Positions 13,412-19,691 of a DNA stretch of 50,626 nucleotides are shown piece after piece. The translations under genes and the position numbers were made by a program. The stretch's first letter is position 1; the number at the start of each line of letters is the position of its first letter. Origin of the DNA: Thiogranum sp. (GTDB lineage: Bacteria; Pseudomonadota; Gammaproteobacteria; DSM-19610); assembly GCA_024636585.1 (NCBI GenBank), contig JAGXGS010000057.1, positions 1 through 50,626 on the forward strand, given 5' to 3'. The notes under the pieces were generated by a model that saw only the letters and a program-made list of their open reading frames with translations, ran no database searches and was not told the DNA's origin.

Positions 13412-14856
13412 TCTTTACCTCCTGTCATTTTATTGCTGAGCGTTTCCGGCAAATGTGCGGCAACTGTGCCGATGGAACCGGCACCGAGCGTCAGCAGAAT
13501 ATCCCCCGGCTGCAACAGATCGCTCAGCACACCCGGCAGGTTCTCGATGTCTTCGACAAATACGGGATCAACGCGCCCACGAATACGAATTGCCCGACAG
13601 AGTGCGCGCCCGTCAGCGCCGGCGATCGGCGTTTCCCCGGCGCTGTATACTTCGCTCACCAACAGTACGTCCGGTTCAGTGAGCACCCGGGTAAAGTCGT
13701 CGAACAGGTCGTGGGTACGCGTATACCGATGAGGCTGAAAAGCCACCACCAGTCGCCGGTCCGGCCAGCCGCTGCGCGCCGCCGCCAGCGTGGCCGCCAC
13801 TTCGGTCGGGTGATGGCCGTAATCATCGACCAGCAGCACGGAACCACCCTCGACAGACACTTCGCCATACAGCTGGAAGCGGCGATCAATACCCGCGAAA
13901 GTCTCCAGTGCGTGCTGAATCGCCGTATCCGCGACGCCGAGTTCGCGCGCCACTGCCACTGCGGCCAGTGCATTCAGCACGTTGTGGCGTCCAGGCAGGT
14001 TCAGCACTACGTCCAGCGTGGCGTGGTCGGCCTGCTGAATCTCGAAGTGCATCTGCAAACCGTTCTGGCGCAGATTAACCGCACGCACATCGGCGGCTTC
14101 GGAATCGATACCGTAGGTACATACCTGTCGGGTCAGCTCCGGCAGCACATCGCGCACATTCGGATCGTCCAGACACATCACCGCCAATCCATAAAAAGGC
14201 AGGTGATGCAGAAATTCCACGAAGGTCTGGCGCAGCCTCTGGAAATCGTTCTCGTATGCAGACAGATGATCGGCATCGATATTGGTGACCACCGACAACA
14301 CCGGCTGCAGGTAAAGAAAAGACGCGTCGCTTTCGTCCGCTTCCGCAACCAGGTAGCGTCCGCTGCCAAGACGCGCATGACTGTCGGCGCTGTTCAAACG
14401 GCCGCCGATCACAAAGGTCGGATCGAGTCCGCCTTCCGCGAGCAAACTCGCCACCAGGCTGGTGGTAGTGGTCTTGCCATGCGTACCGGCAACTGCAATG
14501 CCTTGCCGAAACCGCATGATCTCCGCGAGCATTTCCGCGCGCGGCACCACCGGTATGCGCCGCTCGCGCGCAGCAATCACCTCGGGATTCGACTCATTCA
14601 CTGCGCTGGATACCACCACTACGTCACTTTCAGCGACATGCGCGGCTTCATGGCCCAACCAGATTTGGGCGCCCATGTGGCGAAGACGCCGCGTGACTGC
14701 GTTGTCGCGCAGATCAGAACCGGTAATTTCATAACCCAGGTTGAGCAGTACTTCGGCGATGCCGCCCATGCCAGCGCCGCCGATACCAACGAAGTGTGCA
14801 CAACGGATACGTCGCATGCTGTCCGGCTGAGCGACTGGCTGCTTTAATTCTGCCAT
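13408..14856 (-). CDS. murC: UDP-N-acetylmuramate--L-alanine ligase
   Basis: MurC (482 aa) adds L-Ala to UDP-MurNAc. Features: N-terminal nucleotide-binding [20 protein letters not shown] loop GTHGKTTT at 124-131, the central [10 protein letters not shown] motif, and the C-terminal [14 protein letters not shown] motif. The ATG at 14856 is chosen because it overlaps the murG stop (TAATG) and has a GGGAGG ribosome site; the frame stays open to 14892, but that would run into murG. Its last codons carry the AGGAGG that appears to serve the next small ORF. Confidence 0.97.
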
Positions 14857-15944
14857 TACGCCGCCTCCCGCCAGCCGGTGGCCGCCACGCACTGTTCCGC
14901 CACCTCGCGCGCGGCGCGGGGCATCGCCAGCGCACGAGCCTTGCGTGCCATCTCGCGCAGTTTTTCGGGCTGGTCCAGCAACTGCAAATGCTCGCGAAGC
15001 TTCTGCGGCGTCATCTGCGTCTGCGGCAACAGCAGCGCCGCACCCGCATCCACCAGAAAATGCGCGTTAACGGTCTGATGATCGTCCACGGCGTAGGGAT
15101 AGGGAACCAGGATCGAGCCCACACCGACGGCGGCGAGCTCTGCCACGGTCAATGCACCGGCGCGGCATAACACGAGGTCAGCCCACTGGTAAGCCGCCGC
15201 CATGTCATCGATGAAAGCGTCCAGGCGTACCTGCACGTCAGCTCGCGCATAGGCTTCACGTGCAGCGTCGATATGCCTGAGCCCGGTCTGATGCCAGACC
15301 TCGGGACGCCGGGCGGTGTCCAGCACCGCCAGTGCTTCCGGCACCTGTTCATTGAATGCGGCGGCACCGAGGCTCCCGCCAACCACCAGCAGGCGCGGCC
15401 GGCGCGATGAAGGATCGGGTTCATTCATTTCAGCAGCAGCGATAGTTTCGCGAACCGGATTACCCGTATGCAAGGCGCGCGGCAGACTTCCGGGGAAGCC
15501 TTCCAGCACCGGATCAGCGATCCGGGCCAGCAAGCGATTGGTCAGACCGGCCACTGCGTTCTGTTCATGAATCAGCAGCGGGCGCCGGAGCAGCCATGCC
15601 ATGGCGCCACCGGGCCCGGTCGTGAAACCGCCCATTCCCAGCACCGCGGCCGGTCGCACACGCAGCAATACCCAGCCTGACTGCAACAGCGCCCATACGA
15701 GCATGAAGGGCGCGATCAGCAGGCGCAGCGCGCCTTTACCGCGCAGACCGCTGACGCGGATCCAGTGGATCGGAATTCCGGTTGGCGGCACCACGCGCGC
15801 TTCCAGACCGGCGCGCGTGCCCAGCCAGGCCACTGGCCATCCCTGCGCCTGTAACTGCTCAGCCACAGCCAGCGCGGGAAACACATGCCCACCGGTGCCA
15901 CCGGCCATGATCAGAATCGGCCTGCGTTCCTGCCCGCGCATCAT
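14856..15944 (-). CDS. murG: Lipid II synthase, GlcNAc transferase MurG
   Basis: MurG (362 aa) is the membrane-associated GT28 enzyme that adds GlcNAc to lipid I at the inner face of the cytoplasmic membrane. The N-terminal motif [19 protein letters not shown] and the C-domain glycine-rich loop [17 protein letters not shown] are present, with the donor-site region [18 protein letters not shown]. It overlaps ftsW by 4 bp (ATGA) and murC by 1 bp. Confidence 0.97.
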
Positions 15945-17149
15945 GCAGCACTCCTGCGTCGCCTGGCCGGCTGCGTCCCGGAAGCGGGCATACTCTTGAC
16001 GCTGCAGCGGGTTTCATAATCGATACGCAACAACATGGCGATCGCCATGCAGGTCACCAGCATGCTGCTGCCACCATAGCTCATCAGCGGCAGAGTCAGT
16101 CCTTTGGTCGGTAGCAGCCCGGTATTCACGCCGATATTGATAAACGCCTGCAAACCCAGCCAGGTACCGACACCGTAGGCAAGATAGGCGGAAAACAGAT
16201 TGCCATCGTGCTCGGCTGCGTTGGCGATGGCATAAGCGCGCAACACCAGAAATGTGTACAACCCGAGCAGCACCAGGATACCCACCAACCCAAGCTCTTC
16301 GGCCAGCACCGCGAACAGGAAGTCGGTATGCGCCTCCGGCAGATAGAACAGTTTCTGAATACTGGCGCCGAGCCCTACGCCCAACCACTCGCCGCGGCCG
16401 ATGGCGATCAACGACTGGGTCAACTGAAAACCGCTGTTGAACGGATCCGCCCAGGGATTAAGGAAAGTGGTCAGACGTTCCAGCCGGTAAGGGGAAGAGA
16501 TGGCCAGGGCCGCGAAACCGGCACCGGCGAGTGCGATCAGTGCACCGAACTTCCACAGGCTCACGCCGGCGATGAACATCATCACCAGCACGGTCGCCAT
16601 CAACACCACCGTAGCTCCGAAATCCGGCTCCATCAACAACAGCACCGAAACCACCATTAATAACAGCAGTGGTTTAGCGAAACCGATGCGCGTATGCCGC
16701 ACGCTCTCTCCATGCCTGACCAGATAGCCTGCCATGTAGATCAATGCCAACAGCTTGGCCGGCTCCGACACCTGCAGACGCAGGAAACCGAAGTTCATCC
16801 AGCGGGTACTTCCGTTCACTTCAACGCCAATACCCGGCACCAGCACCATGGCCAGCAGCAGTATCGCCAGCAGAATGCACAACTGGCTGCCGCGCTCCCA
16901 CCAGGCCATGCGCACCCGCAACACCAGCAGACCAAGCGCCAGCCCCATCAGCAGATAAACGCTCTGGCGTTCGGCAAAATAAAATGTACCCAGTTCGAGA
17001 CGATCGGCAACCGGCATGGACGCCGATGTGACCATGACCAGACCCAGCGAAAACAGCACCGCAACCGCACTTAGCAGTGCGAAATCCAGCTGCGGGCAAT
17101 GCCCGCCGCGGCGTACCGGCATATCCGGCAACAGCACCGAGAGGTTCAC
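15941..17149 (-). CDS. ftsW: Septal peptidoglycan glycosyltransferase FtsW
   Basis: FtsW (402 aa) is a SEDS polymerase with about ten membrane segments that works with FtsI at the septum. The conserved C-terminal signature GLTLPLMSYGGSSML is intact. The start is taken as the GTG at 17149, which forms a GTGA overlap with the murD stop and has AGGAG 8 nt upstream; a TTG at 17155 would sit only 2 nt from that site. The order murD-ftsW-murG is canonical. Confidence 0.96.
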   Translation of the reverse strand: MNLSVLLPDMPVRRGGHCPQLDFALLSAVAVLFSLGLVMVTSASMPVADRLELGTFYFAERQSVYLLMGLALGLLVLRVRMAWWERGSQLCILLAILLLAMVLVPGIGVEVNGSTRWMNFGFLRLQVSEPAKLLALIYMAGYLVRHGESVRHTRIGFAKPLLLLMVVSVLLLMEPDFGATVVLMATVLVMMFIAGVSLWKFGALIALAGAGFAALAISSPYRLERLTTFLNPWADPFNSGFQLTQSLIAIGRGEWLGVGLGASIQKLFYLPEAHTDFLFAVLAEELGLVGILVLLGLYTFLVLRAYAIANAAEHDGNLFSAYLAYGVGTWLGLQAFINIGVNTGLLPTKGLTLPLMSYGGSSMLVTCMAIAMLLRIDYETRCSVKSMPASGTQPARRRRSAA

Positions 17150-18510
17150 GTGCAATGCTCCTGCACAGCCTGCATGAACAGTTCTCCGCGGTGTGCGTAG
17201 CCACTGAACATATCGAAACTGGCACAGGCCGGTGACAGCAGTACTGTATCTCCGGCGTCAGCCACCAATGCACATTGTTTCACCGCTTCGGTCATGCTCC
17301 GTGCACGTTGTACGGGAAAACGTCCCTGCAACGCCTGCTCGATTTCCGCCGCCGCCTCGCCCAGTAACACCAGCGCCTTGACGCGACTGTCCAGCCCGGC
17401 AGCAAGCTGGCTAAAGTCGGCACCTTTACCCTGGCCCCCGGCGATCAGAATCAGCGGCCCATCGAAACCGTTGATGGCAGCCAGCGCGGCGCCGACATTG
17501 GTCGCCTTGGAATCATTGAACCAGCTGACACCATGACACTGGGCGACCCATTGGGTGCGATGCGGCAGGCCCTGGAATTCGCGCAATGTTTGCAGCATGG
17601 CCGAACGTTCGATGCCCGCGGCTTCACCCAGCGCCAGTGCTGCCAGTGAATTGGCCAGATTATGCAGACCCGGCATCCGAATCTGCATCACCGGTAGCCA
17701 GCGTTCCTCACCCTTGACCACCCAGCGCTGTCCGTCCAGTTCGCGCACCCCGAAATTCTCTCCGTCCGGAGCATCGAGGCCGAAGCTCACCACAGCGTTA
17801 CCGGGCTGGATCATAGTCGCGACTGCTGCATCATCCCGATTGATAACCTGCAATTCGGTATGTGTGAAAATCTGCCGCTTGGCCTGTGCATAGTCTTCCA
17901 GTGAAGCGTAGCGATCCAGGTGATCGGGGCTCACATTCAGCACCGTCGCCGCCCGGCAGAACAGGCTCTGCACCAGGTCCAGCTGGAAACTCGACAGTTC
18001 CAGCACATACAGATCGGGCTCGTGGTCCTGCAAAAGAGCCAACGCCGGGGTTCCGAGATTTCCGCCCACGCGCACGTCCATACCACCACGCCGCGCCATG
18101 GCACCGACCAGTGTCGTAACGGTGCTTTTGCCGTTGGAGCCGGTGATTGCAATTACCGGGGCAATCGCGGCGCGCGCAAACAATTCAATATCGCCGATGA
18201 CCTCGACGCCACGGCGGCGCGCCTCTACCAGCACCGGTTCGCGCAAGTCCACACCCGGACTCACCACAATACGTTCCGCACGCGCGAACACCTGGGGATC
18301 GAAACCGCCGAGAAACAGCGCCACATCCGGTAACTCTGTCTGGATGTCTGCAAGCCCGGGCGGCTGCGCACGGCTGTCTGTTACCGCAACTTCTATACCC
18401 TGTCGCACCAGGTAGCGCGCACAGGACAAACCCGTGGCTCCAAGGCCCACGATCAGGGTACGTGTCGCATGTGATGAGTCCATTTCCATTGTGTCAGCCG
18501 CAGCCAGCAT
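17146..18510 (-). CDS. murD: UDP-N-acetylmuramoylalanine--D-glutamate ligase
   Basis: MurD (454 aa from this start) adds D-Glu to UDP-MurNAc-L-Ala. The N-terminal LIVGLGATGLSCARYL, the ATP loop GSNGKST at 124-130 and the HRTQWVAQCHGVSWFNDSKA region are typical. The ATG at 18510 is preferred because GGA lies 7 nt upstream and it begins 10 nt after the stop of the 24-codon ORF; ATGs at 18489 and 18483 would give a more usual N-terminal length but lack a ribosome site. The frame is open upstream to 18555, inside the small ORF. Confidence 0.95.
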   Translation of the reverse strand: MLAAADTMEMDSSHATRTLIVGLGATGLSCARYLVRQGIEVAVTDSRAQPPGLADIQTELPDVALFLGGFDPQVFARAERIVVSPGVDLREPVLVEARRRGVEVIGDIELFARAAIAPVIAITGSNGKSTVTTLVGAMARRGGMDVRVGGNLGTPALALLQDHEPDLYVLELSSFQLDLVQSLFCRAATVLNVSPDHLDRYASLEDYAQAKRQIFTHTELQVINRDDAAVATMIQPGNAVVSFGLDAPDGENFGVRELDGQRWVVKGEERWLPVMQIRMPGLHNLANSLAALALGEAAGIERSAMLQTLREFQGLPHRTQWVAQCHGVSWFNDSKATNVGAALAAINGFDGPLILIAGGQGKGADFSQLAAGLDSRVKALVLLGEAAAEIEQALQGRFPVQRARSMTEAVKQCALVADAGDTVLLSPACASFDMFSGYAHRGELFMQAVQEHCT

Positions 18511-18520
18511 CACTTGTCCG

Positions 18521-18595
18521 TTAAATGAAAAACAACACCACGGCAATGACTGCAAACGTCACGCCGACCAAAGTTATTTGACTCTTTTCGTCCAT
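18521..18595 (-). CDS. 24-aa single-membrane-segment small protein (novel)
   Basis: This 25-codon ORF fills the space between mraY and murD. It starts at an ATG 13 nt past the mraY stop with a strong ribosome site (GAGAGGTGGCG before ATG), and its TAA is 10 nt before the murD start. The product is MDEKSQ followed by ITLVGVTFAVIAVVLFFI: a short charged N-terminus and one 18-residue hydrophobic helix reaching the C-terminus, as expected of a small inner-membrane protein. Gene spacing on both sides matches a normal operon gene, and the frame explains the otherwise empty gap. I know of no named family at this position. A role with MraY, MurG or FtsW at the membrane is only inferred from location. 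Confidence 0.62.
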   Translation of the reverse strand: MDEKSQITLVGVTFAVIAVVLFFI

Positions 18596-18608
18596 CGCCA
18601 CCTCTCAA

Positions 18609-19691
18609 TCAACGAATCTTCAATGTCGCGAGACCGAACAGCACCAGGATCAGCGTTACGATCCAGAAGCGCACGATCACGCGGGGTTCCGGCCAGCCTT
18701 TCAGCTCGAAATGATGATGCAGCGGTGCCATGCGAAAAATTCGCCGCCCCGTCAACTTGAATGAAGCAACCTGCAGAATGACCGACACCGTCTCCATGAC
18801 AAAAACGCCTGCCATCACAAAGAACACCAGCTCCTGGCGAGCCAGCACTGCAACGATACCGAGTGCCGCGCCCAGCGCCAGCGCACCGACATCGCCCATG
18901 AATACCTGGGCCGGATAGGCGTTGAACCAAAGAAAACCGAGACCGGCACCGACAATTGTTCCGCAGAAAATCGCGACCTCACCAATACCCGGTATATGTG
19001 GAATAGAGAGATAGGTTGCGTAATAGGCATGTCCCGCGGCATATACGAACACCACCAGCGCACCGGCGATCAGCACTGTCGGTAAAATTGCCAGGCCATC
19101 CAGACCGTCAGTCAGATTCACTGCATTACTGGAACCGACCACCACCAGGTAGACGACCGCGACATACCAGCCGCCGAGTGGAATGGCGACGTCTTTGAAA
19201 AACGGCACAATCAGTTCGGTCTCGGCCGGCGACTGGGCGAAGAAAAACAGGTACAGACCGGTTGCCAGTGCCGCCAGCGATTGCCAGAAATATTTACTGC
19301 GTGCGGACAGCCCCTTGCAGTTGCCCTTCACGAGTTTTTTATAATCATCGATCCAGCCGATCACACCGAAGGCCAGCGTGACCAGTAACACCACCCATAT
19401 ATAGCGATTCGTCAAATCTGCCCACAACAAGGTTGAAACTGCGATTGCCACCAGAATCATCGCGCCGCCCATGGTCGGCGTGCCGGCTTTCGAGAAATGC
19501 GATTCCGGACCGTCCTTGCGCACCTGCTGCCCGATCTGGTGAAAAGTGAGACGGCGGATCATGGTGGGTCCGACAACAAAGGAAATCAGCAACGCGGTCA
19601 GCACGCCGAGGATAGTCCGCAGAGTCAGGTACTGGAACACATTGAACCCGGTGTGATACTGGCTCAGGTAGTCCGCGAGATACATCAACAC
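18609..19691 (-). CDS. mraY: Phospho-MurNAc-pentapeptide translocase MraY
   Basis: MraY (360 aa, as in E. coli) transfers phospho-MurNAc-pentapeptide to undecaprenyl phosphate, making lipid I. About ten membrane segments; the Mg-binding D115-D116 (GWIDDYKK), the [10 protein letters not shown] motif and the HHHFELKG loop are intact. The start is GTG at 19691, directly after the murF TAG and 8 nt after GGAGG; an ATG two codons later is further from the site. It ends just before the 24-aa small ORF. Confidence 0.98.

Follow-up and report, generated by a model that had tools for sequence, protein, structure and literature searches.

Small accessory proteins that consist of a single membrane helix, including CydX, AcrZ and KdpF, constitute a functional grouping rather than one homologous family. 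Few bacterial gene clusters have been studied as thoroughly or are as strongly conserved as the dcw cluster, and its product MraY, an essential antibiotic target, is acted upon through a membrane helix by protein E of phage phiX174. CydX, a small protein of cytochrome bd oxidase that is 37 amino acids in length, is described in PMC4325964 as having few highly conserved residues and as often being unannotated, and is replaced in some operons by CydY or CydZ. AcrZ is portrayed in PMC7267776 as a small one-helix protein lying in a groove of AcrB, where it takes part in allosteric modulation together with lipid.

The action of protein E on MraY has been placed near Phe-288 of helix 9 (PMC10914600, PMC11812184), and in P. 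aeruginosa MraY a dimer-interface cavity that binds lipid has been proposed to sense externalised lipid II and regulate the enzyme (PMC10914600). Both cases indicate that influences on MraY can be exerted at its membrane surface. The feedback on P. aeruginosa MraY is reported in PMC10914600 to be intrinsic to the enzyme, with no other protein needed, hence any peptide acting on MraY in the clade described below would be an addition. A short open reading frame (sORF) has also been reported from the dcw region of R. sphaeroides, situated in the 5' leader before mraZ and put forward in PMC5089854 as a possible leader peptide.

Location of the sORF within the dcw cluster

The sORF described here is encoded on the minus strand of the whole 50,626-nucleotide stretch of DNA that was analysed (the window), which comes from an uncultured Thiogranum sp. 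and in which the gene order murE-murF-mraY-[sORF]-murD-ftsW-murG-murC was confirmed. Its coordinates, spacing and peptide sequence, read on that strand, agree with those of a preliminary description of this DNA. The window's order is referred to as order 1, and two related orders as orders 2 and 3. The relevant features are:

14856..15944, minus strand: murG, encoding a peripheral membrane enzyme; rival candidate partner
15941..17155, minus strand: ftsW, the next downstream membrane-protein gene; rival candidate partner
17146..18510, minus strand: murD, with its likely start 10 nt past the sORF stop
18521..18595, minus strand: sORF, 24 sense codons, ATG to TAA; one-helix membrane peptide MDEKSQITLVGVTFAVIAVVLFFI, with homologues in 31 genomes
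18598..18606, minus strand: Shine-Dalgarno-like sequence GAGAGGTGG, close 5' of the sORF ATG
18609..19691, minus strand: mraY, directly upstream of the sORF; proposed partner

The mraY stop codon TGA (18611-18609) is followed by a 13-nt gap, TTGAGAGGTGGCG, and then by the sORF ATG at 18595, from which a frame of 75 nt runs to the TAA ending at 18521, with 10 nt remaining before the murD ATG at 18510. An alternative murD start in the list of open reading frames, a TTG at 18555, lies inside the sORF and is not regarded as the likely one. Approximately 19 residues precede the VGLG-like motif in the MurD proteins of order 1, mostly with at least two in-frame ATGs (18510-18454 in the window; loci L007-L026), so the true murD start is ambiguous.

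The Shine-Dalgarno-like sequence of the window forms a duplex of -10.3 kcal/mol with the anti-Shine-Dalgarno sequence, and a duplex of -4 kcal/mol or below was found in 29 of 30 members (the exception being L010), whereas 14% of 14-mers drawn from locus L007 came as low. That level is, however, also attained by 83% of shuffles matched in composition, and the strength of this site is for that reason weak evidence when taken alone.

Occurrence and evolutionary history

Homologous frames of 24 to 27 codons were identified in the mraY-murD gap of 31 genomes from the three orders, directly behind mraY in all 31, with carriers amounting to 20 of 20 genomes in order 1, 10 of 11 in order 2 and one of 18 readable spacers in order 3. 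The order-1 sample comprised 20 genomes of one family and three genera, searches at the family and order levels having returned the same 20, and in each of these the frame begins 7 to 17 nt past the mraY stop. A profile built from 18 order-1 rows (A1), when searched against 369 genomes of the class, retrieved two genomes beyond the window's family (E 9e-7 and 2.5e-4), both of which belong to order 2 and carry the match between mraY and murD.

Among the 11 genomes of order 2, profile A2 detected eight carriers, and reading of all 11 spacers added two strongly diverged members, MDLRWQFGVVAILFLGMGLVFWVM and MDFRWQFGVVAILFLGMGLVFWVI; the remaining genome, G389, has no sORF in its mraY-murD spacer. 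When 2712 translated frames from 26 loci were searched with a profile of order-1 sequences only, the order-3 member was recovered at E 4.5e-6, along with six of the eight order-2 loci given (E 6.6e-9 to 0.042). The diverged order-2 members G385 and G386 were missed in that search, and once other order-2 rows were added to the profile, one diverged member appeared, only at E 0.84; as both fall below profile detection, their membership rests on place, length and the MD...Q start. The FtsW protein of G385 (locus L249) was observed to depart at 17 of 131 otherwise invariant columns, the next highest count among 20 taxa being three.

The order-3 sample consisted of 23 genomes, 20 of which had an mraY match and 18 a readable spacer. 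The single carrier, G398, uses a GTG start and reads MDIKSQIAIVSAALLIISLVLSLM (M being written for the start), and the other 17 readable spacers held no sORF. A search for copies elsewhere in order 3 with profile A5 matched one of the 23 genomes, a member that is itself included in A5.

A further 142 spacers were examined, of which 135 were parsed, these being 74 of 79 named gammaproteobacterial loci and 61 of 63 further spacers of the class, chosen by MraY closeness. Three of the 135 (L181, L189 and L203) belong to order 3, and the 132 parsed mraY-murD spacers outside the three orders contained neither a homologue nor a clear membrane frame among frames of at least 15 codons, the only frames listed. 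Any gap frame of that length was present in just three of the 74 named loci, none of them hydrophobic, and the most hydrophobic frame of the 61 class spacers (24 amino acids, in L214) scored 1.12 over its best 15 residues, as compared with 1.86 to 3.31 for residues 7-24 of the members. Searches of the 369 class genomes with A1 (E <= 0.01) and A3 (E <= 0.05) likewise found no intact sORF outside orders 1 and 2; eight other profile matches (E 3.5e-4 to 0.049) fell in longer frames (115-941 residues) and were attributed to chance. Across 398 genomes of the phylum, no genome but that of the window was matched by A5 at E <= 0.001. The profiles used are short and of limited sensitivity, A1 having missed the carrier G350 and A2 two of the 10 order-2 carriers, so absence elsewhere rests mainly on the spacers that were read. 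The named loci and the G-numbered genomes may overlap in species, and the gammaproteobacterial MAG CSMAG_2845 was counted together with G017 rather than as a separate genome.

Two observations were made on individual loci. In L082, L098 and L115 the frame past mraY resembles, by eye, the start of ftsW and not that of murD, and murD may have moved from its place behind mraY in these loci. The murD start of L054 (CAMAXW010000009.1), titled as a Klebsiella pneumoniae MAG, looks non-enterobacterial, and the species label may be wrong.

A tree was inferred from concatenated proteins, namely MraY, MurD (139 loci) and, if available, MurF. The three orders formed one clade with support of 0.995, the nearest outsider being the non-carrier G101. 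G398 was the first branch of order 3 (0.993), G389 was placed inside order 2 on the longest branch of that order, and order 1 was not monophyletic, with order 3 grouping with it at 0.877. Given this single clade, the simplest history would be one gain before the three orders split, followed by two losses. Relatives with the same gene order that lack the frame, which the preliminary description had named as evidence against its proposal, do exist (G389 and the 17 order-3 spacers), yet their placement in the tree resembles that of losses within the clade. They show that some members can do without the gene, which has apparently been lost twice and would thus be dispensable there. The gap from mraY to the murD motif is 97-228 nt in 14 of the 17 order-3 non-carriers (L181, L189, L260, L263-L269 and L271-L274), as opposed to 23-84 nt in 70 of the 74 named loci, and these long gaps would fit space left by a decayed copy of the sORF.

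Selection on the frame and character of the peptide

The pN/pS ratio of the order-1 frame was 0.28 (16 non-redundant of 20 rows, with a mean nucleotide identity of 69%), whilst column shuffles gave 0.86 +- 0.19 with a minimum of 0.48, none of 300 being as low as the observed value. In order 2 the ratio was 0.64 (nine of 10 rows), a value reached by one of 300 shuffles. In order 1, stops interrupted the +1 frame in 14 of 16 rows (ratio 0.81) and the +2 frame in five of 16 (ratio 2.64); in order 2, the +1 frame was interrupted in nine of nine rows and the +2 frame was stop-free in all nine. Third codon positions were the most variable in both orders. The amino acid sequence of the peptide is thus under purifying selection, and since the last 200 codons of mraY gave lower ratios (0.12 in order 1 and 0.31 in order 2), the peptide is the faster-evolving of the two. 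RNAalifold gave no consensus structure for 15 order-1 members (-1.03 kcal/mol), and an RNA element was rejected on this account.

The proposal of a small membrane-protein gene within the dcw cluster, made originally from the window alone, is borne out by the conservation of the hydrophobic 24-codon frame in relatives of the same gene order, the spacers of which display the membrane helix and synonymous-site bias that had been suggested as a check. We regard it as almost certain that the sORF is a coding gene for a membrane peptide.

The peptide of the window is composed of a polar MDEKSQ segment and 18 hydrophobic residues with a Kyte-Doolittle mean of 2.91. Across all 31 members the mean for residues 7-24 ranged from 1.86 to 3.31, as judged on the hydropathy scale only, and no charged residue occurs after position 8. 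The length is 24 residues in 25 members, 25 in five and 27 in one, that of L023 being taken from its second ATG. The most conserved residues are Q6 (31/31), V10 (30/31), F14 (28/31) and T13 (27/31), and the order-1 consensus from 18 rows is MDEKSQIAxVGVTFAVIAVLLVLL. Polar or charged residues occupy most of the first six positions in order 1 and fewer of them in order 2.

The positive-inside rule relates positive residues to the cytoplasmic side of the membrane. Arginine or lysine is present at position 4 or 8 in 26 of the 31 members, which suggests a cytoplasmic N-terminus, though acidic residues in second and third place make this reading tentative. In order 1 and in the merged set, conservation tends to be concentrated on one side of the helix: depending on which of four spans was taken, the helical moment of conservation (100 degrees) gave p values of 0.002 to 0.018 for the merged set (23 sequences out of 30) and of 0.009-0.028 for order 1 alone, under a null that ignores relatedness. 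The pattern was not significant in order 2 alone (p 0.09-0.51). Residues Q6, V10, T13, F14, I17 and L21 all fall within approximately 100 degrees on the helix.

Searches of family libraries with the window peptide returned DUF7396 as the best Pfam-A match, at 14.6 bits against a cut-off of 27, and no NCBIfam match at all. For 24 members, the best E values were 0.022 in PHROGs and 0.021 in Pfam, where a curated cut-off or an E value below 0.001 was required, and no PDB sequence matched at E <= 10. Literature searches combining mraY, murD or dcw with small proteins found no such gene among the matches listed, which consisted of titles and the starts of abstracts and included few subscription journals. 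The gene family therefore appears to be undescribed, whereas small one-helix proteins whose genes lie next to those of their partners are a known kind.

Candidate partners and comparison with described systems

The sORF product has several features of a small accessory protein, namely a length of 24-27 amino acids, where proteins of this kind have fewer than 50, one hydrophobic helix, a place beside the gene of a membrane enzyme and selection on its amino acids. For a one-sided helix of just membrane length whose gene is fixed behind that of an enzyme with ten helices, the best reading is that it packs on a larger membrane protein, and we consider it likely that the peptide serves as an accessory of a membrane protein of the dcw cluster. 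Transcription would proceed with the operon; upon translation, the short polar N-terminus (MD..xQ) would probably remain in the cytoplasm, residues 7-24 would cross the membrane as a single helix, leaving hardly any tail on the opposite side, and the conserved face (Q6, V10, T13, F14, I17 and L21) would probably pack on the larger protein in the manner of CydX and AcrZ. The likeliest partner is MraY, as suggested by the position of its gene directly upstream in every carrier, and the peptide might stabilise MraY, tune its activity or hold it to MurF or MurG. We assign a probability of roughly one half to this reading of a one-helix accessory peptide with MraY specifically as its partner.

Sequence signatures of a partnership were sought in 19 carriers, 12 order-3 non-carriers and G389, with the window row dropped. 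Of the columns that carriers conserve, those altered in both loss lineages numbered none of 229 in MraY, none in FtsW, MurG or MurC, and two in MurD. The unique departures of G389 were seven of 199 columns in MraY, five of 131 in MurD, three of 117 in FtsW, three of 128 in MurG and three of 207 in MurC (MurF and MurE, cut by the G389 contig end, were left out); its MraY count is the highest of 20 taxa, and G389 also has the longest branch in order 2. Of the three partners named in the preliminary description, MraY, MurG and FtsW, position favours MraY, whilst these residue-tracking searches yielded nothing convincing for any of them. Because murD invariably flanks the sORF at its other end, position by itself does not discriminate between MraY and other partners in the dcw cluster.

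A chance open frame without function would be consistent with how common 24-codon frames are by chance, but such a frame would hardly be conserved across three orders under purifying selection, and few column shuffles stay stop-free (two of 300 in order 1 and 11 of 300 in order 2); we deem this explanation extremely unlikely. A leader peptide, by definition, keeps its frame and a fixed short distance to the next start, with amino acids free to vary. The sORF fills the mraY-murD gap, and the first murD-frame ATG lies no more than 20 nt from its stop in 27 of 30 members, as might be expected if it were a translational device, a leader that maintains ribosomes on the message and provides coupling between mraY and murD, with little function for its peptide as such. 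Nonetheless, that distance ranges from 2 to 55 nt in the 30 members, the amino acids are conserved (Q6 without exception) while silent changes vary, RNA structure is not conserved, and the 135 parsed control spacers do without an sORF, all of which renders the device improbable. We are similarly disinclined to favour a peptide that acts alone or as a homo-oligomer, such as a small channel or stress peptide, with only its expression tied to wall synthesis: one conserved helix face would also fit self-association, but the place in the dcw cluster is fixed in every carrier and no known family was matched.

More weight is due to the possibility that the peptide is real and that its partner is another dcw membrane protein (FtsW, FtsI/FtsL or membrane-bound MurG), with mraY merely a neighbour. 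The ftsW and murG genes follow in the same cluster, neither of the two loss-signature tests returned a signature specific to MraY, and Gp11 of phage phiNM1, a small membrane protein, is described in PMC11237401 as binding MurG and DivIC, not MraY. Set against this are the location of the sORF directly behind mraY in all 31 carriers and the precedent of CydX, which PMC4325964 places downstream of its partner genes cydAB, and on balance we hold a partner other than MraY to be rather doubtful. The accessory reading with MraY as partner may be taken further, to a dedicated, clade-specific one-helix subunit of MraY, perhaps located near the dimer-interface cavity, that sets the rate of lipid I synthesis; this extension is speculative and, in our estimation, unlikely.

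A conserved sORF behind mraY that was apparently gained once and lost twice offers a natural experiment on the tuning of the first membrane step of wall synthesis. It also illustrates that a conserved 24-codon gene can escape family libraries, yet emerge when the short spacers of relatives are compared.

Among described systems, CydX resembles the sORF peptide in having one helix, few highly conserved residues and a gene downstream of those of its partner. It differs in that its partner is a respiratory oxidase, in its greater length and in a C-terminus proposed to touch the CydA Q-loop (PMC4325964); the sORF peptide, by comparison, ends almost where its helix ends. The Q-loop goes along with the presence of CydX, a link that proteins of this kind need not strictly show, and the tests above revealed no corresponding partner feature for the sORF peptide. 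AcrZ is likewise a small single helix on a large membrane protein, as is proposed here, but the N-terminus of AcrZ is periplasmic, opposite to the orientation suggested for the sORF peptide, and its partner is a drug pump (PMC7267776). The R. sphaeroides sORF is also a small dcw-linked frame, although it lies before mraZ and not between mraY and murD. Protein E of phiX174 is a bacteriolytic phage inhibitor, whereas the sORF is a chromosomal gene under purifying selection, and the two are likened by description only; if the peptide were indeed a subunit of MraY, it would represent a cellular, non-lethal counterpart of the phage strategy.
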